A stretch of 37,051 bases of DNA from an uncultured Roseobacter sp. (GTDB taxonomy: Bacteria > Pseudomonadota > Alphaproteobacteria > Rhodobacterales > Rhodobacteraceae), in the NCBI GenBank assembly GCA_913054455.1, contig CAJXIL010000021.1, forward strand, positions 1 to 37,051, given 5' to 3'. Under the pieces are notes generated by a model. It saw only the letters and a program-made list of their open reading frames with translations. It ran no database searches and was not told the DNA's origin. This document shows, in pieces, positions 1-30,023 of the stretch. Both the position numbers and the translations under genes were made by a program. How positions within the stretch are numbered: position 1 is the first letter of the stretch; each line of letters begins with the position of its first letter.

Positions 1-718
1 TCCGCATATCCCATTCCCCACCGAACTCCGATGTAACCGTGCTGCGGCTGGTCTCAACCACCAGGTTATCGTTTCTGGCGCGATAGGTGATCAGATCCGA
101 GATCGTACCGATCTTGAGCCCGTGCTTCTCGGCGTAGTCCACCAGATCTGGCAGGCGGGCCATAGTGCCGTCCTCATTCATGATCTCGCAGATCACCGAA
201 GAGGGATATTGCCCGGCCAGGCGCGCCACGTCGCAGCCCGCTTCGGTGTGACCTGCCCGCACCAAGACACCGCCGCGCCGTGCCCGCAGTGGAAAGACAT
301 GGCCCGGAGTCGCGATATCGGCTGCGGTTTTTTCAGAATCAATCGCGGTCGCCACGGTCAGGGCACGATCGGAAGCGGAAATGCCAGTGGTGACGCCTTC
401 GCGGGCCTCGATGGAGACGGTAAAGGCGGTTTCGTGGCGCGATGAGTTGTGCATCGCCATCATCGGCAGGCCAAGTTCGTCGATACGCTCGGCAGGTAGG
501 GTCAGGCAGATCAAACCGCGCCCATGGGTGGCCATAAAGTTGATGGCCTCTGCGTCGGCGCTCTGCGCCGGGATGACCAGATCGCCTTCGTTTTCGCGGT
601 CCTCATGGTCGACCAGAATGAACATCCGGCCCGCACGGGCCTCTGCGATGATCTCTTCAATTGGGCTGATCGCCGCGCGCAAACGGGCCTCGACCGGCCC
701 CGGTGTTTCAAAGCTCAT
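1..718 (-). CDS. ribBA: RibB domain of a probable RibBA (DHBP synthase / GTP cyclohydrolase II-like), 3' end outside window
   Basis: This catalyses the conversion of ribulose 5-phosphate to 3,4-dihydroxy-2-butanone 4-phosphate, the four-carbon input of riboflavin synthesis, in the cytoplasm. The gene starts at an ATG read from 718 downwards and stays open for 239 codons to the window edge. I read the family landmarks RAGRMFILVDHEDRENEGDL (substrate and metal loop), ATHGRGLICL, HNSSRHETAFTVSIEA, TPGHVFPLRARRGGVLVRAGHTEA and a TISDLITYR end. A stand-alone RibB is about 210-220 residues, and this reading frame continues past that point, so I infer a fusion to a RibA-like C-terminal domain. Whether that domain keeps cyclohydrolase activity cannot be seen. 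In related genomes it lies with ribE, ribD and nrdR; here a plus-strand gene separates it from ribE. Confidence 0.93.
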   Translation of the reverse strand, partial: MSFETPGPVEARLRAAISPIEEIIAEARAGRMFILVDHEDRENEGDLVIPAQSADAEAINFMATHGRGLICLTLPAERIDELGLPMMAMHNSSRHETAFTVSIEAREGVTTGISASDRALTVATAIDSEKTAADIATPGHVFPLRARRGGVLVRAGHTEAGCDVARLAGQYPSSVICEIMNEDGTMARLPDLVDYAEKHGLKIGTISDLITYRARNDNLVVETSRSTVTSEFGGEWDMR

Positions 719-866
719 GCTGATAGCCTTTCGGTACAGATGCCCCAAGGGCCCATCGCCCGGCGGGTATATAGGGCGAAATAGCCCAGCCGGACGTCAA
801 AGGCCAGCCCCACGAGCGGCACAGCACGGGCTAGACGCGGCGTTTTACTTCGGGCAGAAAGATTGA

Positions 867-878
867 ATTGGATACAAT
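867..878. promoter_or_regulatory. Putative GntR-type operator (ATTGGATACAAT)
   Basis: A near-palindrome of 12 bp with arms ATTG and CAAT lies 26 bp before the ATG of the proline-racemase-family gene. FadR/GntR-type regulators often recognise TTGTATACAA-like sites, and hydroxyproline catabolic genes are commonly under such regulators. No regulator gene is in the window. The site could also be chance, because the region is locally AT-rich. Confidence 0.4.
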
Positions 879-904
879 ATTCACATAAATGGAGAGTCAC
901 CGCC

Positions 905-1957
905 ATGCGCGCATCCCGCATCCTGCAAGCCGTAGACGCCCATGCCGAGGGCGAACCAGGCCGTGTTATCACTGGCGGCATGCCGCTTTTGCGCGGCAAT
1001 ACCGTTTTTGAAAAGATGCAGGATATGGCGCAAAATCATGATGATATCCGGTTGCAGATGCTGCGTGAGCCGCGCGGCAATCCCGGCCTCTGTGGCAATG
1101 CCATCGTGCCCCCTTGCCATCCGGAGGCTGATGCGGGCTTCATCATCTTTGAACAGACGGAATACCCGCCAATGTCGGGATCCAATGCCATCTGCGTGGT
1201 CACTGTGCTCTTGGAAACAGGCATTGTGCGCATGGTGGAACCGGTGACGGAGCTGACGCTGGAGGCTCCAGCTGGGCTGATCAAGGTGAGGGCCGACTGC
1301 TGCGACGGCAAAGTAACGCGGGTGACGTTTCAAAACGTCCCCGCCTTTGCCATGCATCTGGATGCCCCGGTTGAGGTCGCGGGACTAGGCACGGTCAAGG
1401 TGGATGTCGCCTGGGGCGGGATGTTCTTTGTTCTGATCAATGGCGAGACCATCGATCTGGATCCGACGGCCGAAAATGGCGCAGAAGTCGTGCGCATCAG
1501 CGAGGCCATCCGCCATGCAACCACCGAGCAATTGCCGGTCCAGCACCCTGAAAACCCGAACATCACCGGCCCTACCATCTCTAACCTCTGGGCCCGGCCG
1601 CAGGCAGCAGGCACCCATGGGCGCGGCGCCATCACCATCTCGACCGGGACCTTTGACCCTGCCCGCCCGCAGGATGCCAGCGGCATTCTGGATCGCTCCC
1701 CCTGTGGCACCGGCACCTGCGCCAAAATGGCGGTTCTTTATGCCCGTGGACAACTGGGATTAGGGGAAGACTATGTGAATGCAGGCCCCTTAGGCACGAC
1801 GTTCACAGGTCGAATTCTGGACACCACTCGGGTTGGAAACTTCCCGGCGATCCTTCCCAGCCTCTCGGGTCAAGGCTGGATTTATGGGCTGGCCTCTTAC
1901 ACGCTAGATCCCAGCGATCCCTTTCCCCAGGGCTATACCCTTGGGGATATCTGGTAA
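905..1957 (+). CDS. Proline racemase family enzyme (hydroxyproline epimerase / trans-3-hydroxyproline dehydratase type)
   Basis: The protein has 350 residues, the usual size for this family, which includes proline racemase, 4-hydroxyproline 2-epimerase and trans-3-hydroxyproline dehydratase. These are two-base enzymes acting at the alpha carbon. The second catalytic site is intact: SPCGTGTCAKMA with Cys267. At the first site the usual MCGHG is MSGSN, so Ser91 replaces the first catalytic Cys. The position of the start was decided by GGAGAG at 891-896, 8 nt before the ATG; a TTG 42 nt upstream lacks such a site. The enzyme is likely cytoplasmic, with no signal peptide. It is transcribed against the flanking rib genes, and a possible GntR operator precedes it. 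Family membership is firm; the exact substrate is not, because Ser/Cys members have been linked to more than one hydroxyproline reaction. Confidence 0.85.
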   Translation: MRASRILQAVDAHAEGEPGRVITGGMPLLRGNTVFEKMQDMAQNHDDIRLQMLREPRGNPGLCGNAIVPPCHPEADAGFIIFEQTEYPPMSGSNAICVVTVLLETGIVRMVEPVTELTLEAPAGLIKVRADCCDGKVTRVTFQNVPAFAMHLDAPVEVAGLGTVKVDVAWGGMFFVLINGETIDLDPTAENGAEVVRISEAIRHATTEQLPVQHPENPNITGPTISNLWARPQAAGTHGRGAITISTGTFDPARPQDASGILDRSPCGTGTCAKMAVLYARGQLGLGEDYVNAGPLGTTFTGRILDTTRVGNFPAILPSLSGQGWIYGLASYTLDPSDPFPQGYTLGDIW

Positions 1958-1964
1958 GGCAAAA

Positions 1965-2034
1965 CAGGGGGAGGGGCGCTGCCCCTCGGCCTCGCGGCCT
2001 CACCCCGGAATATTTTTGGAAAGCTGAAAAGATG
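1965..2034 (+). repeat. Intergenic palindromic repeat, copy A
   Basis: Starting 7 bp after the racemase-family stop codon is a GC-rich imperfect palindrome (GGGGCGCTGCCCC, then GGCCTCGCGGCC) followed by CCGGAATATTTTTGGAAAG. The same order of blocks occurs inverted at 21789-21849, and shortened forms occur at 35086-35117 and 28842-28865. It is a dispersed element of the host genome and not a gene. Confidence 0.75.
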
Positions 2035-2041
2035 CTGGCAT

Positions 2042-2067
2042 GGGGAGGGTGCAAACTGCTCCCCTTT
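2042..2067. terminator. Possible terminator between convergent genes
   Basis: GGGGAG (2042-2047) can pair with CTCCCC (2059-2064), and TTT follows on the plus strand. It sits between the 3' ends of the racemase-family gene and ribE. The stem is short and the T run is only three bases, so this is a weak call. Confidence 0.35.
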
Positions 2068-2088
2068 CCCATGTGGAGCCGTAGGTTC

Positions 2089-2676
2089 TCAACCTGCCTC
2101 GTGCAGCCGCGCCACATAGCGCGCCAGGGTGTCGATCTCCAGGTTCACCTGATCGCCCAGCTTTACATCCCCCCAGGTGGTCACCTCTTTGGTATGCGGG
2201 ATGAAGTTGATGCCAAAATCGCAGCCCTGCACATCGTTTACCGTCAGGGAGGTGCCGTTCAAAGCGACGGATCCCTTGGGGGCAATGAAACGCGCCAGTT
2301 CTTTTGGTGCGCGCAGAGTCACACGGGTGCTATCACCTTCGTCCTGCAGGTCGACCACCTCAGCCACCCCATCCACATGGCCCGACACGATGTGCCCGCC
2401 CAGTTCATCCCCGACTTTCAAGGCCCGCTCCAGGTTGACCCGCTTGCCGATCTTCCAAGCCCCGACATTGGTTTTTGACACGGTTTCGGCAGAGATCTGC
2501 ACATCGTACCAGTCCTCCCCCAGCTCGATGACAGTAAGGCAAACCCCATCCGAAGCAATCGAGGCCCCAAGGTCGATGCCTGAGGTTTCATACTTGGTGG
2601 CAATCCGCGCGCGCAGATCCCCCTGCTGATCCAGCTGGGCAATGGTTCCAATGTCAGTGACGATACCGGTGAACAT
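2089..2676 (-). CDS. ribE: Riboflavin synthase alpha chain
   Basis: This catalyses the last step of riboflavin synthesis, dismutation of two 6,7-dimethyl-8-ribityllumazine molecules. The protein has 195 residues and begins MFTGIVTDIG, the hallmark N-terminus of the family. Two tandem lumazine-binding repeats are visible: GASIASDGVCLTV, VNLERAL and GGHIVSGHVDG in the first, then FIAPKGSVALNGTSLTVN, FIPHTKEVT and VNLEIDTLARYV in the second. The frame is open further upstream, but the MFTGIV start is preferred because AGGAG lies 8 nt upstream and it matches the family N-terminus. The gene is convergent with the racemase-family gene and divergent from kpsS. I found no FMN riboswitch core upstream of it. 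Confidence 0.96.
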   Translation of the reverse strand: MFTGIVTDIGTIAQLDQQGDLRARIATKYETSGIDLGASIASDGVCLTVIELGEDWYDVQISAETVSKTNVGAWKIGKRVNLERALKVGDELGGHIVSGHVDGVAEVVDLQDEGDSTRVTLRAPKELARFIAPKGSVALNGTSLTVNDVQGCDFGINFIPHTKEVTTWGDVKLGDQVNLEIDTLARYVARLHEAG

Positions 2677-2984
2677 CGTGAGCGCTCCTAGGCTTTGGCT
2701 GCGGCGGAATATTCCTATCGCAGAGGTAGCCCAAGCTGCTACTGCTTCACAAGCCCTGCTCTGGGCCATGCTTGGGCTTATCTGCAAACGGACGGGACGG
2801 TAAGCCCACTCGTCGACCTGTCAAAGACCGAGGCAGCGACCGAAGGAAAGCTTGCCGCGTCAATCGCAGGGGACGTAAACTGGCGCAAAGCCTTGCTGGT
2901 TTGCGTGGTCATAGTTATGCCCCAGTCCAGCGCTAAAATCCGGCGTTAGAGTATTCACCCCTTAACCAAAGATGCCTCCCCCCG
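2677..2984. other. Divergent promoter region between ribE and kpsS
   Basis: These 308 bases hold no convincing gene. They contain an inverted repeat, AGCCCAAGC at 2728-2736 and GCTTGGGCT at 2770-2778, with a 33-nt spacer that could be a looped regulatory site or a leader hairpin of ribE. The plus-strand frame at 2695-2949 opens with TTG and has no family likeness. Confidence 0.5.
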
Positions 2985-4277
2985 ATGCAGAGCCACCATT
3001 CCAAGCAACCTTCCTTTTTGTTCCTTCAGGGACCACATGGGCCGTTCTTCAACGCCCTCGGCAGGATGCTGCGCATGGCGGGCTGTCAGGTTTGGCGCAT
3101 TGGCTTTAACGCGGGCGATCAAGCCTTTTGGCGCAACAAGGCGCGGTATTTGGCATATCAGGGCACCCTGGCGGAGTGGAAAGATTTTTTCGAGACGACC
3201 TGCCAAAACAAGGCAATCACCGACATCGTTCTTTACGGTGACACCCGGCCAGTTCACGCTGAGGCAATTGCCGCCGCCCAGGCTCTAGGGCTTCGGGTAC
3301 ATGTGTTTGAAGAAGGTTACCTGCGCCCCTATTGGGTCACCTATGAACGTGGCGGTGCCAATGGACATTCGCGCCTGATGCAGACCTGCGTAAGCGATAT
3401 GCAATCCGCATTGGAGCTGTCGGATATGGAGGCACCGTTACCGCCGTCCCATTGGGGGGACATGCGCCAACATGTGTTCTACGGCGCGCTGTATCATTGG
3501 TTTGTCATGTTCTGGAACCGCAAGTATCGCAACTTTCAACCCCATCGTGCGATCCCTGTTACCCGCGAGTTTCAGCTCTATTTGAAACGGCTGGTATTGA
3601 TGCCGGCCCAGGCGCTGGAGCGTCGCCTCGCCACATGGCGTATTCGCAACGGGGGTTTCCCCTATCATCTGGCGCTGTTGCAGTTGGAGCATGATAGTTC
3701 GTTTCAGATGCATTCTCCCTTTGACAGCATGAGTAGTTTCCTGGCGGAAGTAATTGCAGGCTTTGCCGCTGGCGCGCCGCGTCACCACCACTTGGTGATC
3801 AAGGCCCATCCGCTAGAAGACGGCCGTAGCCCGATCCGCCGCGAGTTGCGGCGCCTGGCCCGTGAGCATGATATACTGGATCGCGTGCATTACGTGCGCG
3901 GTGGCAAACTGGCAGAGCTTCTGAACGAAGCGCGCACCGCCGTAACCGTGAACTCCACCGCCGGGCAGCAGGTGCTCTGGCGCGGCATCCCGCTCAAGGT
4001 CTTTGGCGATGCGGTTTATGACAAGGAGGCCTTCACCTCCTCCCAGCCTCTGGCGCAGTTCTTTGCCGCACCGGCCCGACCGGACAACCGCGCCTACAAG
4101 GACTACCGGCGCTATCTGCTGGAGACCTCTCAGGTTCCAGGGGGCTTTTATTCTCGATCCGGGCGTCGCCAATTGCTACGCCATGTTGTTGATATGATGC
4201 TCTCCCCGCATGATCCCTATGATGCCCTGCGCCACGGCACAGCGGCTCCACGGCAACAGTTATCCGTGGTCCGCTGA
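2985..4277 (+). CDS. kpsS: Capsule polysaccharide Kdo-linker transferase, KpsS-like
   Basis: KpsS-type proteins add the first beta-Kdo residue to the lipid that anchors group 2 capsules, at the cytoplasmic face of the inner membrane. The 430-residue product begins with the characteristic FLFLQGPHGPFFNALGRML block. It continues with DIVLYGDTRPVH, HVFEEGYLRPYWVTYE and a C-terminal HHHLVIKAHPLEDGR / VTVNSTAGQQVLWRG region typical of the Capsule_synth family. There is no signal peptide. The ribosome site before this ATG is poor (a C-rich tract), so the start is uncertain by a few codons. The gene is followed after 95 bp by the wza-like gene and then by kpsC, all in the same direction, which supports the capsule assignment. 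Confidence 0.88.
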   Translation: MQSHHSKQPSFLFLQGPHGPFFNALGRMLRMAGCQVWRIGFNAGDQAFWRNKARYLAYQGTLAEWKDFFETTCQNKAITDIVLYGDTRPVHAEAIAAAQALGLRVHVFEEGYLRPYWVTYERGGANGHSRLMQTCVSDMQSALELSDMEAPLPPSHWGDMRQHVFYGALYHWFVMFWNRKYRNFQPHRAIPVTREFQLYLKRLVLMPAQALERRLATWRIRNGGFPYHLALLQLEHDSSFQMHSPFDSMSSFLAEVIAGFAAGAPRHHHLVIKAHPLEDGRSPIRRELRRLAREHDILDRVHYVRGGKLAELLNEARTAVTVNSTAGQQVLWRGIPLKVFGDAVYDKEAFTSSQPLAQFFAAPARPDNRAYKDYRRYLLETSQVPGGFYSRSGRRQLLRHVVDMMLSPHDPYDALRHGTAAPRQQLSVVR

Positions 4278-4372
4278 CTGAAACCTTTCGCAAGACTGGA
4301 TTTTCTCCTCAAACCGCGCTAGCCTGTCCAAAAAACTGAGGCAGAATAATAATAGGTCGAGGAGACCGAGCA

Positions 4373-5506
4373 GTGAAAAACGTCCCCTTTTCATGGGTGC
4401 GGCCCGTGGCGATTCTCGCTGCATTGACGCTTGCGGCGTCTTGCAGCCTGCCAAAAGTTGGCCCCAACAAACGTCAAATCTTTGCCGGATCGGTACAGAA
4501 AGAAGGCGATGCCTTTATCGTCTCCGTAAATGATCGCGTCACCCGCGCCACCGCCGTGGTTCCGGCCCTTGGATTTTCCCAAAGCTTTGTCAATGCCGGG
4601 CGCCTGACCTCTGACACCATTCGCCCTGGCGATGTTTTGGGGCTCACGATCTGGGAAAACGTCGATGATGGCCTCTTGGCCAATGAAGCCTCCAATGCAA
4701 CCGCCCTTGAAGAGGTGCAGGTTGATAGCGCTGGCTATATTTTTGTGCCCTATGCCGGGCGTTTGCGCGCCTCTGGCAATACCCCAGAGCAGCTGCGGGC
4801 CGAGATCACCAAAAAGCTCGAAGATCAAACCCCCGATCCGCAGGTTCAGGTACGCCGCGTTGCCGGGGATGGCTCCACCGTCAGCCTGACAGGCGCTGTG
4901 GGCGGTCAGGGCGTCTATGCCATTGAACGCCCGACCCGTACGCTGTCCACCATGTTGGCGCGGGCTGGCGGCGTCGCAATTGAGCCCGAAATTGCCCAGA
5001 TCACCGTGATCCGGGGCAATGAACAGGGCAAAATCTGGTTCCAGGATTTGTTTAACCACCCTGAGTTGGATATCGCGCTGCGTGGCGGTGACCGCATTTT
5101 GGTTGAATCCGACAGCCGCTCATTTACTGCCCTTGGTGCCACCAGTGCCCAGGCGCGGGTGCCTTTTGAAAGCCAGGATCTGTCGGCGCTGGAAGCCATT
5201 GCCCAGGTTGGCGGCCTGATCTCCACCACCTCTGATCCCACTGGGGTTTTCATCTTCCGCAACGAACCGGCAGAGATTGCCAATCAGGTCCTGGGGCGCG
5301 ACGATCTGGTTGGCGCTCAGCGGATGGTCTACGTGTTGAACCTCACCCAACCAAACGGGTTGTTTGTCGCCCGTGACTTTGTGGTGCGTGACGAAGACAC
5401 GCTTTATGTCACCGAAGCGCCCTATGCACAGTGGACCAAGACAATCTCACTGTTGGCCAGCCCGCTCACTCCGCTCGCCAGCGTCGAAACGCTGTTTGGC
5501 GGCTAA
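4373..5506 (+). CDS. wza: Outer-membrane polysaccharide export lipoprotein (OPX family, Wza/KpsD-like)
   Basis: This is likely the outer-membrane channel through which capsule leaves the cell. The N-terminus is a lipoprotein signal with lipobox LAASC, giving a lipidated Cys at about residue 24. A poly_export domain follows (IRPGDVLGLTIWENVDDG ... VDSAGYIFVPYAGRLRASGNTPEQL), then two SLBB-like segments around VSLTGAVGGQGVYAI and TALGATSAQARVPF. The length of 377 residues matches Wza (about 379) rather than the longer KpsD. The start is a GTG at 4373 with GGAG at 4361-4364. It sits between kpsS and kpsC, with only 4 bp to the next ATG. No Wzc/KpsE co-polymerase gene is in the window. Confidence 0.85.
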   Translation: MKNVPFSWVRPVAILAALTLAASCSLPKVGPNKRQIFAGSVQKEGDAFIVSVNDRVTRATAVVPALGFSQSFVNAGRLTSDTIRPGDVLGLTIWENVDDGLLANEASNATALEEVQVDSAGYIFVPYAGRLRASGNTPEQLRAEITKKLEDQTPDPQVQVRRVAGDGSTVSLTGAVGGQGVYAIERPTRTLSTMLARAGGVAIEPEIAQITVIRGNEQGKIWFQDLFNHPELDIALRGGDRILVESDSRSFTALGATSAQARVPFESQDLSALEAIAQVGGLISTTSDPTGVFIFRNEPAEIANQVLGRDDLVGAQRMVYVLNLTQPNGLFVARDFVVRDEDTLYVTEAPYAQWTKTISLLASPLTPLASVETLFGG

Positions 5507-5510
5507 TGGG

Positions 5511-7550
5511 ATGATCGGCGCAACAGCCACATCAAAAGCCGGGGGCCGAGGCTCCCGGCTTTTTGTATACAATGGCGGCTTTGTCACCCAGCCAAGGCTG
5601 CGCCGTATTCTCGATCTGGCCGGTTATCAACTCCGCCTTGGTTTGCCAAAAGAGGGCGACCTTGTTGGGATCTGGGGCAATTCCCCCACTGCGCATCGTG
5701 GGCGAACCGTGGCAGCCAAATACGGCGCGGATCTTTTGCGCGTAGAAGACGCCTTTTTGCGCTCCATCCATCCTGGCCGCGCCGGAGAGCCCCCCATGGG
5801 GCTGCTGTTGGACCGCAAGGGGCTGCACTTTGATCCCGCGCAGCCCTCCGATCTGGAAGATCTCCTGGCCACCCACCCGCTGGACGACAGCCATATGATG
5901 CGCCGCGCCCGCAATGCTATTGGCCGCCTGCAGGACGCACATCTAAGCAAATACAACGGCTTTATGCCCAGCGCCCCCTTGCCGGATCCCGGCTATGTTC
6001 TGGTGGTGGATCAACTCCGCGGCGACGCCTCCGTCACCGCCTCCAAAGCGGATCGTGCCCGTTTCCTTGAAATGCTGGTCTTTGCCCAGGAAGAACACCC
6101 TGGCGCGCGCATCTTGATCAAGACACATCCCGAAACCCGCGATGGACATCGTGCTGGGCATTACCTCGACACGGATGCGCAGGGTCGGGTTGAAATGTTC
6201 AGCGATCCTGTCTCTCCATGGGGCCTTCTGGAGGGAGCGATTGCGGTCTATACCGTATCCTCACAGTTCGGGTTCGAGGCAATTTTGGCGGGCCATAGGC
6301 CGCGGGTTTTTGGCCAGCCTTTTTATGCTGGCTGGGGATTGACCCAGGACGAGGACCCGGTTGCGCGGCGACAACGCAAACTCACCCGGCCACAGCTGTT
6401 TTCCGCGGCAATGTTTCTTTATCCCACCTGGTACGATCCATTTAATGACAGGCTCTGTGAGCTGGAGCGCGTCATCGACACATTGGAATCCAGCACCCGC
6501 GCCTGGCGTCAGGATAGCGTCGGCTGGGCGGCCTCAGGCATGCGGTTGTGGAAGCGCAAGCCCCTGCAGGGGTTCTTTGGCAAGACCCGCAAGCTGAAGT
6601 TTACCGAAAGCCCTGAGGAGGCCCGCAAGAGTGGGCGCAACTGGATGGTTTGGGCCAGCAAAGCACAGGGCAAGACCCATGCCGGCGCCACACATGTCGA
6701 GGACGGCTTTCTGCGCTCGCGCGGGTTAGGGGCCGATCTGGTTCCGCCCATGTCGCTGGTGCTGGACCGACAGGGGATCTACTACGATCCGCGTCAGCCC
6801 TCGGATCTGGATGACCTGATTACCCAGCGAGCGGATCTTGGCCCAGCTGAGGCCCTGCGTGCTGAGGCATTGATCCAACAGCTGATCCGCAACAGCCTGT
6901 CGAAATACAACCTTTCGGGCGAGCCCCCCGCCCTCCCCGCAGGCCATCGCATTCTGGTGCCTGGGCAGGTGGAGGATGATGCCTCGATCAAAGCCGGATG
7001 TGGACGGATCAATACCAATCTGGAACTGCTGCGCGCCACCCGCAAGGCCAACCCAAAGGCCGTGATCATCTATAAACCACACCCCGATGTCGAAGCAGGA
7101 TTGCGCCCTGGTGGCCTGCCTGAAACTGGCATTGCGGAAGAGCTGGCCGATGTGGTGGCCAGCAACTGTGATCCCATGGCGCTCTTGGATATGGTGCAAG
7201 AAGTCTGGACCATGACATCCCTATTGGGGTTTGAAGCCCTGCTGCGCGGCGCCAAGGTCACCACGCTGGGTCTACCGTTTTATGCCGGCTGGGGGCTCAC
7301 CACAGATAAGCGCACTCCGCCGCCCTGGCGCGCGGCACGTCCTGACCTGTTGGGACTGGCCCATGCGGTCCTGATTGATTATCCGCGCTATTTTGACCCC
7401 ATCACCAATCGCCCCTGCCCCCCCGAAGTGGTGGTAGAACGGCTGATTTCTGGGGAGCTGCCGCAGCCCAGCCTAGGCAACCGCAGCCTGTCGAAACTGC
7501 AGGGCGCCTTTGCCACCTATGCACATTTGTGGCGGCGCGGGAAACTATAG
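5511..7550 (+). CDS. kpsC: Capsule Kdo-linker transferase, KpsC-like, two-module
   Basis: KpsC extends the poly-Kdo linker of lipid-anchored capsules in the cytoplasm. The 679-residue product, about the length of E. coli KpsC, is an internal duplication. Module 1 has LLRVEDAFLRS, PPMGLLLDRKGLHFD and QPSDLEDLL; module 2 has THVEDGFLRSRGLG, PPMSLVLDRQGIYYD and QPSDLDDLI. Each is followed by a SKYN motif, a D[AD]S stretch (GDASVTAS and DDASIKAG), KTHPE / KPHPD and a GFEA(I/L)L...PFYAGWGLT block. The ATG at 5511 lies 4 bp after the wza stop, so the two are translationally linked; the frame is open further upstream, but that would overlap wza by about 140 bp and encode unrelated sequence. It ends 11 bp before the convergent ribD stop. 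Confidence 0.92.
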   Translation: MIGATATSKAGGRGSRLFVYNGGFVTQPRLRRILDLAGYQLRLGLPKEGDLVGIWGNSPTAHRGRTVAAKYGADLLRVEDAFLRSIHPGRAGEPPMGLLLDRKGLHFDPAQPSDLEDLLATHPLDDSHMMRRARNAIGRLQDAHLSKYNGFMPSAPLPDPGYVLVVDQLRGDASVTASKADRARFLEMLVFAQEEHPGARILIKTHPETRDGHRAGHYLDTDAQGRVEMFSDPVSPWGLLEGAIAVYTVSSQFGFEAILAGHRPRVFGQPFYAGWGLTQDEDPVARRQRKLTRPQLFSAAMFLYPTWYDPFNDRLCELERVIDTLESSTRAWRQDSVGWAASGMRLWKRKPLQGFFGKTRKLKFTESPEEARKSGRNWMVWASKAQGKTHAGATHVEDGFLRSRGLGADLVPPMSLVLDRQGIYYDPRQPSDLDDLITQRADLGPAEALRAEALIQQLIRNSLSKYNLSGEPPALPAGHRILVPGQVEDDASIKAGCGRINTNLELLRATRKANPKAVIIYKPHPDVEAGLRPGGLPETGIAEELADVVASNCDPMALLDMVQEVWTMTSLLGFEALLRGAKVTTLGLPFYAGWGLTTDKRTPPPWRAARPDLLGLAHAVLIDYPRYFDPITNRPCPPEVVVERLISGELPQPSLGNRSLSKLQGAFATYAHLWRRGKL

Positions 7551-7561
7551 GGGCCAGCACT

Positions 7562-8659
7562 TTAGCTCGCCCGTAGCCAACGGTGCATCACATCCGCGCC
7601 CACCGGGCAGGTCTCAACGAGCTCAAACCTATTCGCCGCCTCAAGCCTTTGTAGCCCTAGCGCTCCGATAGAGGGTAATCCTTCGGCTCCGATGCCCAGA
7701 CCGGCGGTAAAGCCAATCAGCTCGTCCACCAAATCAAAAGCCAGAAGCGAGGCAGCAAGCGCAGAGCCACCTTCGCAGAACACCCGCGTCAGCCCGGCAT
7801 GTCCCAGCTGCTGCAGGATATCATGGGGATCCAGCTGCACGCCGCGACTGGCGCAGGGCAGCAGACGGGCGCCTAAGCCCTCCCAGGCCTGTTTGCGTTC
7901 AACATCCGCCCCTTGCCCATGGCACAGCCAAAGCGGCACCTTAGAGGCTGAGGTGGCCAGCTGGCTGATCAAGGGCAGATCCAGATGCCGTGAAATCACC
8001 ACCCGCACCGGCTGATGGGCCACACCGAGATCGCGCACCGTCAATGAAGGATCGTCCGCCCGCGCCGTGCCCGCCCCCACCATGACCGCATCATGGCGCG
8101 CCCGCATCGCGTGCACCGCGCGGCGCGCTTCAGGTCCGGTTATCCATTTGCTTTGGCCAGACCCGGTCGCAATACGGCCATCAAAACTGCTAGCCATTTT
8201 CAGCGTCACCAGTGGGCGACCCTGTTCTGTTTTATAGAAAAATCCGGCGTGATCGCGCGCGGCCTCTTCTGCCAGCACCCCAACCTGAACCTCGATACCT
8301 GCCTGACGCAGCATCTCGAACCCCTGCCCCGAGACCCGAGGGTCGCTATCTCCGACAGCTGCCACCATCCGGGCAATACCAGCGTCAATCAACGCCTGAG
8401 CACAAGGCGGGGTTTTGCCGTGATGCGAGCAAGGCTCCAAGGTGACATAGGCGGTGGCACCGCGCGCCTGATCGCCAGCCTGCGCCAGCGCCACGACTTC
8501 GGCATGAGGGCGGCCACCGGGTTGGGTCCAGCCCCGCCCGACAATGCGCCCGTCGCGCACCAGCACACAGCCCACAGCGGGGTTTGGCCAGCAATTGCCC
8601 TGCCCACGTCGCCCAAGAGACAGCGCCAGTGCCATGTATCGGTTATCGGTTTGGGTCAC
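7562..8659 (-). CDS. ribD: Bifunctional riboflavin deaminase/reductase RibD
   Basis: The N-terminal domain deaminates the pyrimidine intermediate and the C-terminal domain reduces its ribosyl side chain, the second and third steps to riboflavin in the cytoplasm. In 365 residues the zinc deaminase signature is complete: HAE at 52-54 and PCSHHGKTPPC with Cys77 and Cys86. The reductase half follows from about residue 150 (VTLKMASSFDGRIATGSGQSKWITG, then DAVMVGAGTARADDPSLTVR and FCEGGSALAASLL). The start is a GTG at 8659 with AGGTGG about 8 nt upstream; an ATG eight codons later is possible. It lies 124 bp downstream of nrdR with a strong hairpin between, and runs into kpsC tail to tail. Confidence 0.95.
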   Translation of the reverse strand: MTQTDNRYMALALSLGRRGQGNCWPNPAVGCVLVRDGRIVGRGWTQPGGRPHAEVVALAQAGDQARGATAYVTLEPCSHHGKTPPCAQALIDAGIARMVAAVGDSDPRVSGQGFEMLRQAGIEVQVGVLAEEAARDHAGFFYKTEQGRPLVTLKMASSFDGRIATGSGQSKWITGPEARRAVHAMRARHDAVMVGAGTARADDPSLTVRDLGVAHQPVRVVISRHLDLPLISQLATSASKVPLWLCHGQGADVERKQAWEGLGARLLPCASRGVQLDPHDILQQLGHAGLTRVFCEGGSALAASLLAFDLVDELIGFTAGLGIGAEGLPSIGALGLQRLEAANRFELVETCPVGADVMHRWLRAS

Positions 8660-8687
8660 GTCTTGCCCACCTATCTGTTGTCACACA

Positions 8688-8722
8688 CGCGCCCGGATCA
8701 GGCCTATGCCAATCCGGGCGCG
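8688..8722. other. Perfect 11-bp hairpin between nrdR and ribD
   Basis: CGCGCCCGGAT at 8688-8698 pairs perfectly with ATCCGGGCGCG at 8712-8722 around a 13-base loop. No T run follows on either strand, so it is not a classical intrinsic terminator. In the nrdR-ribD transcript it would lie in the 124-nt spacer, 28 nt before the ribD start. It could act as an RNA-stability element or limit ribD readthrough. Confidence 0.6.
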
Positions 8723-8783
8723 AGAAAGTCATATGTCCGACCTCATAATGACCGTGTGCGGGCCCGAGATCACGACACCAAAA

Positions 8784-9251
8784 TCATTCTTCTTTTGGCG
8801 CATCAGGGCGCAATTCGTGGACAAAGTCCTCAAAATCATCCGCGGCCTGAAAGTTCTTGTAAACGCTGGCAAAGCGCACATAGGCCACAGTGTCGATCCG
8901 GGCTAGCGCTTCCATGACGATCTCACCGATCTTGCTCGAGGATATATCCGTCTCGCCCATGCTTTCCAATCGGCGCACAATACCAGAGATCATTTGATCA
9001 ATGCGTTCAGGGTCGATGGGGCGTTTCTGCATGGAAATGCGGATGGAGCGTTCCAGCTTATCGCGATCAAAGTCCTCGCGTTTACCGTTGGTCTTGACCA
9101 CCACCAGATCGCGCAGCTGCACCCGCTCGTAGGTGGTAAAACGTCCCCCACATGCAGGACAGAAACGACGTCGACGGATGGATACGTGATCCTCGGCAGG
9201 GCGTGAATCCTTCACCTGAGTATCGATATTCCCGCAAAACGGACAGCGCAT
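8784..9251 (-). CDS. nrdR: Transcriptional repressor NrdR of ribonucleotide reductase genes
   Basis: NrdR represses ribonucleotide reductase operons and senses ATP/dATP. The 155-residue protein has the N-terminal zinc ribbon (Cys3, Cys6, Cys31, Cys34 in CPFC and CPAC) with [18 protein letters not shown]. An ATP-cone domain follows from about residue 49, starting [20 protein letters not shown] and ending with the [11 protein letters not shown] motif. The length is normal. It is the most upstream member of the nrdR-ribD pair, in the usual alphaproteobacterial order. Its upstream region has a perfect DnaA box. Confidence 0.97.
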
Positions 9252-25356: not shown

Positions 25357-26991
25357 ATGACCCTGCGACCAAAGACTGCTACGGCTCTCCCTCTGTACGT
25401 CCTGTGCCGAGGCGCACAACGTCTGCGCGCGTTTCGACGCGACGACAACGGCACCATGACCTATCCGACAATTGCCTTTCTGTTGATGATGCTCGGCATC
25501 GGCGGTCTTGGCGTGGACTTCATGCGGATGGAGAGGGACAGGACCCATTTGCAGGCAACGCTGGATCGCGCGGTTCTGGCCGCTGCCGATCTCGACCAGA
25601 CGCTGGATGGCAAATTGGTAGTGCAAGACTACCTGAATAAGGCCGGTTTGGGAGAATATTATTCTGCAGAAAATGTCGTAGTCGATGACGAAACCCTTGG
25701 CCGCAAAAGCGTGTCAGCTTCCGTTGAAGCTACTTTTGAAGCGCATCTGTTAAAATTTTCCAATGGCAGCGATATGCCTATCTATGCAGCTTCCACAGCC
25801 GAAGAAAGCATCGATAATCTGGAGATCTCGCTGGTTCTGGATGTCTCCGGCTCAATGCGGGGCACCCGTCTGAGCAACCTGAAAGTGGCCGCCAAGGATT
25901 TCATCGAGACAATGGTGGCAAACACTGAAGATGGCAAAATGTCGGTCTCGATCGTGCCCTATGCCACCCAGGTCTCGGTCTCGGATAATCTTATGGCGCA
26001 GTTCACCACCACCGGTGTGAACGCCTTTGCCAATTGCATTAACTTTGCAAGTTCCGACTTTAACACAACCGCGATGCCACTTTCGGCCACCTATGAACGC
26101 ACCATGCATTTTGATCCGTGGTACAGATCTAGACAGACACCTCTGGGGAACCAACATATCAACAATGAGGTCTGCGACACCTTGAACTCGCGGGAAGCCC
26201 TGGTGATGGAGAAGGATGAAACCACGCTCAAGAATTTCATCGAAAACCTGTCGGCCTGGGGCAATACATCCATCGATATCGGGATGAAATGGGGCACGGC
26301 GCTGCTGGATCCCTCGACGCAGCCCGCCATCGCGGCCCTGTCCACCGGGCCAGATGTTCCCAGTGTTTTTTCCAACCGTCCCTTTGCCCATAACGACCCT
26401 GACGCGGATACGCTGAAGATTGTTGTGCTGATGACTGATGGGCAGAATACCAGCCAATATTTTATCGAGCCGCCGTATCGCTCTGGGGCTTCAGACGTCT
26501 TCTATGACACCCGCAGAACGGACTACAGAGGCCTGTCCCTTTATGACGAGGATCGTTCTAGCAGAAGGTACTATCAACGCTACACCGGCGACTGGGAATC
26601 CCAGCCCAGGGGAGAAACCTCCTCCAACAACTATGCCGTGCGGTTAAGCTACCCAGACCTCTTTGCCTATACGTCTTTGCAGTATGTGCGCGATAGGATC
26701 TATGACAATGCATACTATTACAGTTGGGAAGGTAACGACTTTTACGGGCGTGCCTTGTCCAGCCACGGCAATTGGACAAAGAACAATCGCACAAAAGCGA
26801 TCTGCGACACCGCCAAAGCCCAGGGGATCGTTGTTTACACCATTGGTTTTGAAGCCCCCTATGATGGCCGGGCCGTCCTGCGGGACTGTGCCAGCACCGA
26901 CGCGCATTTCTATGATGTCGAAGGGTTGGAAATCAAAGAAGCCTTCAAATCCATTGCAACATCGATCCGCCAACTGAGGTTGACCCAATGA
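25357..26991 (+). CDS. TadG-like protein with von Willebrand A domain
   Basis: This is a predicted envelope protein of the Tad/Flp pilus type. In 544 residues it has a short cytoplasmic start and one membrane segment (about 35-55, TMTYPTIAFLLMMLGIGGLGVD) in the pseudopilin-like TadE/TadG N-terminal form RRDDNGTMTYPTIAF. A von Willebrand A domain follows, with MIDAS motif DVSGSMRG at about 162-169. The rest contains VLMTDGQNTSQYF and a terminal IVVYTIGFEAPYDGRAVLRDCAS ... AFKSIATSIRQLRL. It also has tyrosine-rich stretches near the middle. The ATG at 25357 was preferred over a TTG 24 bp earlier because GAAGAGG lies upstream. It overlaps the next gene by 4 bp. Confidence 0.85.
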   Translation: MTLRPKTATALPLYVLCRGAQRLRAFRRDDNGTMTYPTIAFLLMMLGIGGLGVDFMRMERDRTHLQATLDRAVLAAADLDQTLDGKLVVQDYLNKAGLGEYYSAENVVVDDETLGRKSVSASVEATFEAHLLKFSNGSDMPIYAASTAEESIDNLEISLVLDVSGSMRGTRLSNLKVAAKDFIETMVANTEDGKMSVSIVPYATQVSVSDNLMAQFTTTGVNAFANCINFASSDFNTTAMPLSATYERTMHFDPWYRSRQTPLGNQHINNEVCDTLNSREALVMEKDETTLKNFIENLSAWGNTSIDIGMKWGTALLDPSTQPAIAALSTGPDVPSVFSNRPFAHNDPDADTLKIVVLMTDGQNTSQYFIEPPYRSGASDVFYDTRRTDYRGLSLYDEDRSSRRYYQRYTGDWESQPRGETSSNNYAVRLSYPDLFAYTSLQYVRDRIYDNAYYYSWEGNDFYGRALSSHGNWTKNNRTKAICDTAKAQGIVVYTIGFEAPYDGRAVLRDCASTDAHFYDVEGLEIKEAFKSIATSIRQLRLTQ

Positions 26992-28195: not shown

Positions 28196-28669
28196 TCAGA
28201 AGCTACGCTTTGCGATCATCGCCGCCAAAATCTCTGACATCGTTTTGCTTTGTGATCCTGGTGTAACGCCGCCAATACCGATGCGTCGCCCAGCGCGCCA
28301 CCAAAGACCAGGCATCCAGATCCGCGCGCCCGGTGTCGCCGTGCGGATCAAAAACCCGTTAGAGGGCTTAAACGCAAAAAAGCCGCGATCAATCGCCTCG
28401 ATGTCTGAAACCTGCGCGATGACAGTGCCATCTGTGCAGCGCAGCAGCTCTTCTGTCAGTTCAATCTTATTGCTGGTGGCTTGCCACATACGCACAGAGA
28501 GAAACAGGGCTCCGATCCCGATGATCAGCAGAAACACCAGCCAAGCAAAGGAAGGTGGATTAGACATCGCCACATAGAGCAGGGTCACACCAATTATGGC
28601 CAACATGGTGACACCCATGACACGCCGCAGCCCCGAGGCCTCTACTGTTACCAAGACTTCGTCTGCCAT
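28196..28669 (-). CDS. Inner-membrane protein of unknown function (two membrane segments)
   Basis: The 157-residue product begins MADEVLVTVEASGLRRVM, with two membrane helices (VMGVTMLAIIGVTLLYVAM and FAWLVFLLIIGIGALFLSV). The cytoplasmic domain includes LTEELLRCTDGTVIAQVSDIEAIDRGFFAFKPSNGF and GLWWRAGRRIGIGGVTPGSQSKTMSEILAAM. The last part has the shape of a bacterial PH-like domain. The ATG at 28669 has GGAGAG six bases upstream; an ATG six codons earlier is possible. It is convergent with the TadE-like gene and divergent from the RdhA-like gene. Confidence 0.75.
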   Translation of the reverse strand: MADEVLVTVEASGLRRVMGVTMLAIIGVTLLYVAMSNPPSFAWLVFLLIIGIGALFLSVRMWQATSNKIELTEELLRCTDGTVIAQVSDIEAIDRGFFAFKPSNGFLIRTATPGARIWMPGLWWRAGRRIGIGGVTPGSQSKTMSEILAAMIAKRSF

Positions 28670-28835
28670 CTGTCGCTCTCCTGCCATCCCCTAGCCCCTG
28701 TGCGAAGCCTGTGTTGCACCGGGACATAGCCTGATTTTGGGGCAGCGAACAGCCCTAGCTGTCACACCCGCCTCGCAGGCGGACTCTTAAAGCTGCCCCC
28801 TTGCCCACCCCCCATTGGGCCAGTACCGTCGCAAA

Positions 28836-30023
28836 ATGAGTTGGCCCCAAAATACTCCGCCCCGCAAGGATATCGATGCCGCAGCTGGGATCGATATCAG
28901 CGACGATTTTGAACGCTTTTCTCAGCGCAACGATATTTTCACCCGCGCCTTCTGGGATCCAAAGGTCAAATCCAAACACACAGATAAATTCTTTGCCTCC
29001 TACCGAATGGAGGCGGCGCCTCGCCGTGGGGATGGCTTCAGCCAACGCGACTTTGCCCTGCGCAACGCCGCTTGGCTAATTTCAGATGTGATTTCCAATC
29101 GACGTGGCGCAGACGGCATCCGAGAGGGTTTCCAGGCCACCATACAAAGCGACACCCCCGTGGCATCAGACCCGGTCGAAATCGACGACCCCACCAGAAT
29201 GAGCGCAGAAATCAAGCGGATTTCAACGTTCTTTGGCGCCGACCTTTGCGGCATTACCGACCTAGATGAACGCTGGCTCTACAGCTCGCGCGTGGATACC
29301 CGCGATTTCTCAGAAGCACCGCATGACCTGCCCGAGGGGCTCAACAATGTCATTGTTCTGGGGCATGAGATGGAGGCTGATCTAGTCGCCACCTACCCCT
29401 CTGCTCTGGCGGGCGCGGCTACGGGGCGCGAATATAGCCACGAGGCTGCGGTGGTGATGCAGCTCGCTGCCTATATTCGCAATCTCGGCTACGAGGCCGT
29501 TCCGTCAATGAATGACACCGCACTGGTAATCCCCTATGCGGTAAAGGCGGGTCTGGGTGAATATGCCCGTAACCAGATGGTGATCACCCCCGAATTTGGC
29601 CCCCGCCTGCGGTTCTCGAAAATCTTCACCAACCTGCCGCTGACCCATGATGCGCCCAAACCCCAAGGAGTGCGCGCCTTTTGTGACATTTGCACCAAAT
29701 GCGCCGATGCCTGCCCGGTCAAGGCCCTTCCCTTTGGCCCGCCCCAAGAGGGCGGTAGCAATATCTCAGCCATCAAGGGCGTGCGAAAATGGACATCGGA
29801 CGCGGAAAAGTGCTTTTCCTTCTGGGCCAAAATGGCCTCTGACTGCGCTATCTGCATGCGCGTTTGCCCCTTTAATCGCGACTATTCCAAACCTCAACAC
29901 CGGCTCTGGCTGCGACTGGCGCTGTCTCGTTTTCGCAAGCTGGCTCTGCGCCTAAGCAGAGGCCACGGCGCCCGCGTCAAACCCGGCGCCTGGTGGCAAC
30001 AAGACAATCAAGGCCCGTCCTAA
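28836..30023 (+). CDS. Reductive-dehalogenase-like iron-sulfur protein (RdhA family), cytoplasmic
   Basis: Reductive dehalogenases are cobalamin and iron-sulfur enzymes that remove halogen from organohalides. The 395-residue product carries the family block GLGEYARNQMVITPEFGPRLR, then KIFTNLPL (about 239-268), closely like RdhA GLGE..R...LITPEFGPR.R..KVFTDLPL. Two [4Fe-4S] motifs follow: CDICTKCADACP (Cys283, 286, 289, 293) and Cys326 with CAICMRVCP (Cys337, 340, 344). There is no Tat signal, no RdhB anchor gene and no fused reductase domain, unlike respiratory or aerobic self-sufficient types. The start at 28836 is uncertain (no ribosome site; a TTG 21 bp earlier is also open), and the first codons run through a copy of the intergenic repeat. 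An epoxyqueuosine reductase (QueG) reading fits less well. Catalysis is not proven. Confidence 0.78.
   Translation: MSWPQNTPPRKDIDAAAGIDISDDFERFSQRNDIFTRAFWDPKVKSKHTDKFFASYRMEAAPRRGDGFSQRDFALRNAAWLISDVISNRRGADGIREGFQATIQSDTPVASDPVEIDDPTRMSAEIKRISTFFGADLCGITDLDERWLYSSRVDTRDFSEAPHDLPEGLNNVIVLGHEMEADLVATYPSALAGAATGREYSHEAAVVMQLAAYIRNLGYEAVPSMNDTALVIPYAVKAGLGEYARNQMVITPEFGPRLRFSKIFTNLPLTHDAPKPQGVRAFCDICTKCADACPVKALPFGPPQEGGSNISAIKGVRKWTSDAEKCFSFWAKMASDCAICMRVCPFNRDYSKPQHRLWLRLALSRFRKLALRLSRGHGARVKPGAWWQQDNQGPS
28842..28865 (-). repeat. Possible truncated copy of the intergenic repeat
   Basis: On the minus strand this reads GGGGCGGAGTATTTTGGGGCC, the CCGGAATATTTTTGG core of copies A and B with substitutions. 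It overlaps the first codons of the RdhA-like gene. Confidence 0.45.

Follow-up and report, generated by a model that had tools for sequence, protein, structure and literature searches.

The rdhA locus and its gene neighborhood

The window, a 37,051-nucleotide stretch of DNA from an uncultured Roseobacter sp., carries at positions 28836..30023 of the forward strand an rdhA gene for a cytoplasmic, single-domain reductive dehalogenase, by sequence the orthologue of Ros_A3X954 of Roseobacter sp. MED193. The gene starts with ATG and encodes 395 residues. Its reading frame extends just 15 codons upstream of this ATG (SCPLAHPPLGQYRRK, from position 28791), so that no Tat signal is hidden by a wrong start, and the ATG agrees with the motif positions published for the MED193 orthologue (residues 283-294 and 337-345; PMC13101508). 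A twin arginine, RRKM, ends the upstream stretch, and no hydrophobic segment follows it.

The best mean hydropathy over 19 residues is -0.34 in the first 80 residues of the open frame. Over the whole frame the top value is 1.0 and falls inside an Fe-S loop, with the N-terminus staying below zero. The N-terminal membrane helices that mark transmembrane RdhAs are thus absent by hydropathy, as is the N-terminal Tat signal of respiratory RdhAs, for which the Tat-bearing L113, L144 and L146 provide the contrast. RRxFxK was not found in the first 60 residues of any row of a 59-row alignment (the window protein and 58 others, picked from 80 fetched loci, with L107 excluded because one of its residues is undetermined and L045 cut off where its stop occurs). 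A second B12 domain is also absent, and residues 13-388 of the modeled 395-residue protein align with residues 268-613 of NpRdhA only. Pfam gave no match to a C-terminal FMN/[2Fe-2S] reductase domain in the window protein, in contrast to the other RdhA of the same genome, which has Fer2.

Named by Pfam, the genes of the window run in the order GDH, TadG/TadE/TadE, a membrane gene, rdhA, pirin, TetR and homoserine dehydrogenase, an order that recurs in relatives, MED193 among them. No frame of 40-140 residues with two hydrophobic segments, as sought for RdhB, lies between positions 26800 and 32100; one frame of this size has a single hydrophobic segment and sits inside the pirin gene. Hydropathy, neighboring frames and Pfam therefore bear out the initial annotation, which had described a protein of 395 residues lacking a Tat signal, an RdhB and a fused FMN/ferredoxin domain. 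The membrane gene (28196-28687, reverse strand) encodes 163 residues with two hydrophobic segments and, by eye, no EXE between them. It was considered as an RdhB and rejected, since its family is not linked to rdhA: it occurs in 54 of 80 genomes of the bacterial family, namely 14 of 15 with rdhA and 40 of 65 without.

The neighborhood was surveyed with a crude ORF caller in the window and 80 fetched loci, 81 in all, and a locus was counted as syntenic if at least one of eight other neighbor genes was present. On this definition 57 loci are syntenic and 24 have none of the eight, three of the latter being only 3.8-8.8 kb long. Two genes named from sequence, both missing from the window, accompany rdhA in other loci: a divergent beta-hydroxyacid-dehydrogenase-like gene upstream of it (36/81) and a LysR-like regulator (16/81, with two further weak hits kilobases away). 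In many relatives such genes separate the membrane gene from rdhA, for example the dehydrogenase-like L068:6930-7874 (reverse) and the LysR-like L040:7054-7962 (forward). The dehydrogenase-like gene is found in 36 of the 57 syntenic loci versus none of the 24 others, some of which are short, and so it looks like a neighbor and not a partner. Within about 6 kb in the 24 non-syntenic loci, the families present in at least three loci belong either to a neighborhood common to L047, L051, L057 and L058 or to a family that by eye resembles transporters and stands at varying distances from rdhA. No partner gene recurring outside one syntenic block was found in the 81 loci, although a partner confined to a single locus could have escaped this survey.

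In L047, L051, L057 and L058, all from Rhodobacteraceae, the rdhA orthologue sits between ribBA-like and ribE-like genes (named by eye). The window has the same kind of riboflavin-like set at about 2-9251, where, again by eye, a racemase-like gene occupies that gap.

Profile matches, catalytic residues and fold

The window protein scores 171.9 bits (E = 3e-50) against TIGR02486, the NCBI curated model for reductive dehalogenases, whose cut-off is 160.35, and 25.7 bits against PF13486 (gathering score 24.3; match at residues 174-269). Pfam models for 4Fe-4S domains also match. By sequence, the closest solved structures are the PceAs of Sulfurospirillum multivorans (E 1.9e-48) and Desulfitobacterium hafniense (3.3e-47), followed by NpRdhA (5.4e-30) and the epoxyqueuosine reductase QueG (4.5e-12). 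The similarity to RdhAs is far beyond chance.

The RdhA signature GLGEYARNQMVITPEFGPRLR spans residues 239-259. The first [4Fe-4S] motif, CDICTKCADACP (CxxCxxCxxxCP), occupies residues 283-294 (29682..29717, forward), and the second set consists of Cys326 and CAICMRVCP (CxxCxxxCP; residues 337-345), encoded within 29811..29870 on the same strand. The signature and the two motifs with eight cysteines reported in the initial annotation are thus present, in a protein above the cut-offs of both models. That annotation had also held that the catalytic tyrosine could not be assigned by eye. Alignment does assign it: Tyr200 (codon 29433..29435, forward) aligns with Tyr246 of PceA and Tyr426 of NpRdhA, the proposed proton donor. 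Alignment likewise places Asn226 (29511..29513, forward) with Asn272 of PceA, and Arg259 (29610..29612, forward) with Arg305 of PceA and Lys488 of NpRdhA, so that the anticipated acid site of a tyrosine with lysine or arginine is found as Tyr200 and Arg259. We take these Tyr, Asn and Arg(Lys) positions of PceA and NpRdhA to be the catalytic residues; PDB entry 6zy0 mentions Lys488 in its title. None of the 59 aligned rows departs from Tyr200, Asn226, Arg259 or any of the eight cluster cysteines. Judged by sequence, with scores above the cut-offs, two [4Fe-4S] motifs and a Tyr paired with an Arg, the protein is a member of the RdhA family.

The Arg259 column divides the known enzymes. In a core alignment of 39 sequences it holds Lys in 9/9 members of the NpRdhA/BhbA type and Arg in both PceAs, in two other Tat-bearing RdhAs and in ten short RdhA-like proteins. 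Asn226 is common to the sequence from genome G250 and both PceAs, and occurs neither in the two other Tat-bearing RdhAs nor in the short proteins. The latter, 312-362 residues long (L152, from G767:C11, along with L149, L150, L151 and L153-L156), fall on branches of their own, away from the window protein. Tyr, Arg and the eight Cys are kept in the ten aligned sequences, with Gly, Ala, Ser or Thr in place of Asn226, and one genome of the same class has five copies within 7.2 kb.

Identity over residues 169-349 amounts to 41-42% with the PceAs and 41% with a third Tat-bearing RdhA, from Sulfurospirillum, versus 29% with NpRdhA and BhbA and 29-33% with nine members of their clade. Five short RdhA-like proteins of the same family are nearer than NpRdhA, at 34-36%. 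By sequence, then, the catalytic region resembles the two PceAs, with their Arg acid site, more than the NpRdhA/BhbA clade with its Lys. Since two other Tat-bearing RdhAs reach only 30-31% and lack the Asn, the term PceA-like is limited to the two PceAs.

An AlphaFold2 model of the window protein has a mean pLDDT of 66.6 and a pTM of 0.72, with pLDDT under 50 in the Fe-S loops. Fold searches with this model return PceA chains as the best match (Z 23.1 over 307 residues, 3.6 Å), followed by NpRdhA (Z 18.3) and QueG (up to Z 11.6). All remaining rows are below 7 and include B12 chaperones (Z 6-7) and FMN nitroreductases (Z 5-6), scores that the tool itself calls common. In a maximum-likelihood tree of the 39 core sequences, the clade groups first with G250 and next with the PceA of D. 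hafniense (ultrafast bootstrap 88). Trees constrained to unite it with NpRdhA/BhbA (p = 0.14) or, instead, with the PceAs (p = 0.096) are, however, both compatible with the data by an AU test.

A debrominating orthologue and the proposed function

A paper of April 2026 describes Ros_A3X954, studied in purified form, as a debrominase of 2,6-dibromophenol (PMC13101508). According to that report, it has no Tat signal, PF13486 matches at residues 174-269, and its motifs CDICTKCADACP and CAICMRVCP lie at 283-294 and 337-345. Locus L033, from strain MED193, contains a 395-residue ORF with both cluster motifs exactly at these positions, and on strain name and motif positions the two are therefore equated. 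The window protein is identical to this ORF at 366 of 395 residues (93%), and none of the 29 differing positions is Tyr200, Asn226, Arg259 or a cluster cysteine. High identity, the same motif positions and the same locus identify it, at the level of sequence, as the orthologue of Ros_A3X954, and its function is in this sense essentially known.

The same report gives a conversion of 2,6-dibromophenol to 2-bromophenol with a kcat of 1.1 s-1 and a KM of 71 µM (PMC13101508), or a kcat/KM of 1.5 x 10^4 M-1 s-1. The purified preparation contained 8.06 Fe, 5.64 S and 0.11 Co per protein; iron and sulfide fit about two clusters, and cobalt occupancy is about 11%. Exposure to oxygen abolished activity (data not shown in that report). 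Six organohalides are named in its screen, with activity reported only on 2,6-dibromophenol and only as far as 2-bromophenol. The suggestion of the initial annotation that the protein may dehalogenate marine halogenated compounds thus finds support in a purified orthologue. The observation behind it was real and correctly read, but is already explained by the kind of cytoplasmic, single-domain reductive debrominase described in 2026. The other open-licence passages located do not treat the window protein. The MED193 enzyme and the window protein agree in length, motif positions and surrounding gene order. A Pararhodobacter enzyme, 72.2% identical, is said in PMC13101508, with reference to another paper, to reduce 2,4,6-triiodophenol to phenol.

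The window protein is most probably (at roughly 90%) a cobamide-dependent cytoplasmic reductive dehalogenase for phenols halogenated in the ortho position, chiefly bromophenols and probably also iodophenols. Its orthology, fold and conserved catalytic residues stand beside the lack of an export signal, anchor or reductase. An external low-potential redox protein, such as a ferredoxin or flavodoxin with its reductase, would supply electrons, which would reach cob(II)alamin by way of the two [4Fe-4S] clusters. The Co(I) so formed would attack the C-Br bond, the proton would come from Tyr200, which Arg259 and Asn226 would hold in place, and bromide would leave together with a less halogenated phenol. 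The natural substrate is presumably a halophenol of this kind, and the cellular role may be catabolic or detoxifying. The genome encodes CobN, with a score above cut-off, which makes cobamide synthesis plausible. Several points count against this best explanation: the loss of Ros_A3X954 activity in oxygen is odd for a mainly aerobic host, no redox partner or halophenol gene was seen to recur next to rdhA, and the structure model is of middling confidence.

Alternatively, the main cellular substrate of this RdhA-fold enzyme could be something other than an organohalide, bromophenol turnover being a side activity. The initial annotation had allowed for reduction of another substrate, and the debrominating orthologue makes this the weaker alternative. 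It would fit the narrow activity reported for Ros_A3X954 in PMC13101508, and no recurring redox partner or halophenol gene was found beside rdhA, although neighbors seen in one locus only lack profile names. Elsewhere in the genome, the sole match to proteobacterial catechol 1,2-dioxygenase is far below cut-off. A phenol hydroxylase model has no match there, but its silence shows nothing, as it is equally silent in every control genome; and at 86% completeness, absences from this genome mean little in general. The catalytic efficiency reached despite about 11% cobalt occupancy and the dehalogenase residues kept in all 59 rows argue against a side activity, which is unlikely.

Less probable still is an exported respiratory RdhA serving organohalide respiration through another export route or a distant RdhB. 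Such an enzyme would share the PceA-like active site and catalytic-region identity and the oxygen sensitivity reported for Ros_A3X954, which respiratory enzymes also show. It is opposed by the N-terminus, which has neither a hydrophobic segment nor RRxFxK, by the lack of an RdhB-like gene beside rdhA, and by the lack of a recurring partner outside the syntenic block in the 81 loci.

Finally, a role as QueG or a QueG-like tRNA enzyme, which the fold, the two Fe-S clusters and a weak TIGR00276 match (53.6 bits) might suggest, is rejected as scarcely credible: the cut-off of that model is 200 bits, identity in the catalytic region is 23-24% to two QueGs versus 41-42% to PceA, the VDTAP segment of QueG is missing, with Met225 aligned to its presumably catalytic Asp, and the genome has a separate QueG with PF08331 (G000:C94, L003). 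QueG is thus the best match neither by profile nor by fold, and a best match to QueG was one of the results that the initial annotation had named as refuting its RdhA reading. For the other, a model lacking a corrinoid-sized cavity, the fold match to PceA and NpRdhA serves as a substitute, since the model is too weak in places to gauge the cavity.

Distribution and comparison with known systems

The family of the window is represented by 394 genomes, 54 of which have an orthologue of rdhA (E below 1e-99, 46-100% identity). The debrominase is thus carried by a minority of these genomes, as the window finding confirms. Most of the matches (46/54) span the greater part of the protein and are free of stops; five are partial, some perhaps at contig ends, and four contain an in-frame stop codon (G228, G136, G379 and G137), one match belonging to both sets. 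The stops suggest possible decay of the gene in some lineages, unless they are assembly errors. Among 72,556 plasmid records, none has a match of at least 60% identity, and 21 have weaker ones.

The genome of the window encodes a second RdhA on another contig (G000:C63; L143:1328-4537, reverse), with 1069 residues and a score above the TIGR02486 cut-off. It is of the BhbA/JtRdhA type, with 4Fe-4S and C-terminal 2Fe-2S domains, and is 50% identical to BhbA from the Comamonas plasmid pBHB. One marine genome would thus hold two unlike types of debrominase. JtRdhA, a studied relative of the fused type, works in air (PMC10463259). Roseobacter-group bacteria are abundant in the sea, where bromophenols are common (PMC13101508), and these mainly aerobic bacteria appear to retain a debrominase that is sensitive to oxygen, in this genome alongside a fused one. 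To the published description, the present analysis adds the nearness of the catalytic region to two PceAs, the lack of a recurring partner, the spread of the gene, and the second RdhA and the QueG in the same genome.

On the basis of domain layout, four RdhA subfamilies have been recognized: a respiratory one, a transmembrane one and two catabolic ones, whose mark is a vestigial second cobalamin domain (PMC10463259). PMC13101508 classes Ros_A3X954 as catabolic for want of a Tat signal, and notes that no orthologous group was assigned to it. None of the marks of the four subfamilies is present in the window protein, which so belongs, as the initial annotation had proposed, neither with the classical respiratory enzymes nor with the self-sufficient aerobic ones. 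A broader proposal is tentative, and its parts are together somewhat more likely to fail than to hold: the Rhodobacteraceae enzymes may be an RdhA kind of their own outside the four subfamilies, with a PceA-type catalytic domain that stands alone, free of Tat signal, anchor, domain duplication and reductase. This kind would have become cytoplasmic separately from the NpRdhA/BhbA clade, would take electrons from a general redox protein of the cell and would divide the work with the fused debrominase according to oxygen. If so, one aerobic marine genome would combine an oxygen-sensitive debrominase for low oxygen with a fused, oxygen-tolerant one for aerobic growth.

QueG belongs to the same class of B12/Fe-S enzymes and has a related fold, but the window protein falls below its profile cut-off and lacks its Asp. 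NpRdhA, BhbA and JtRdhA, which are catabolic, share with the window protein the cytoplasmic location, ortho-halophenol substrates, the catalytic Tyr and two Fe-S clusters. Unlike them, it has no vestigial N-terminal B12 domain and carries Arg in place of Lys488, and unlike BhbA and JtRdhA it has no reductase domain. The respiratory PceAs of S. multivorans and D. hafniense are alike in the Tyr/Asn/Arg set, in identity over residues 169-349 and in fold (Z about 23), whereas the window protein is cytoplasmic and has neither their Tat signal nor an RdhB.
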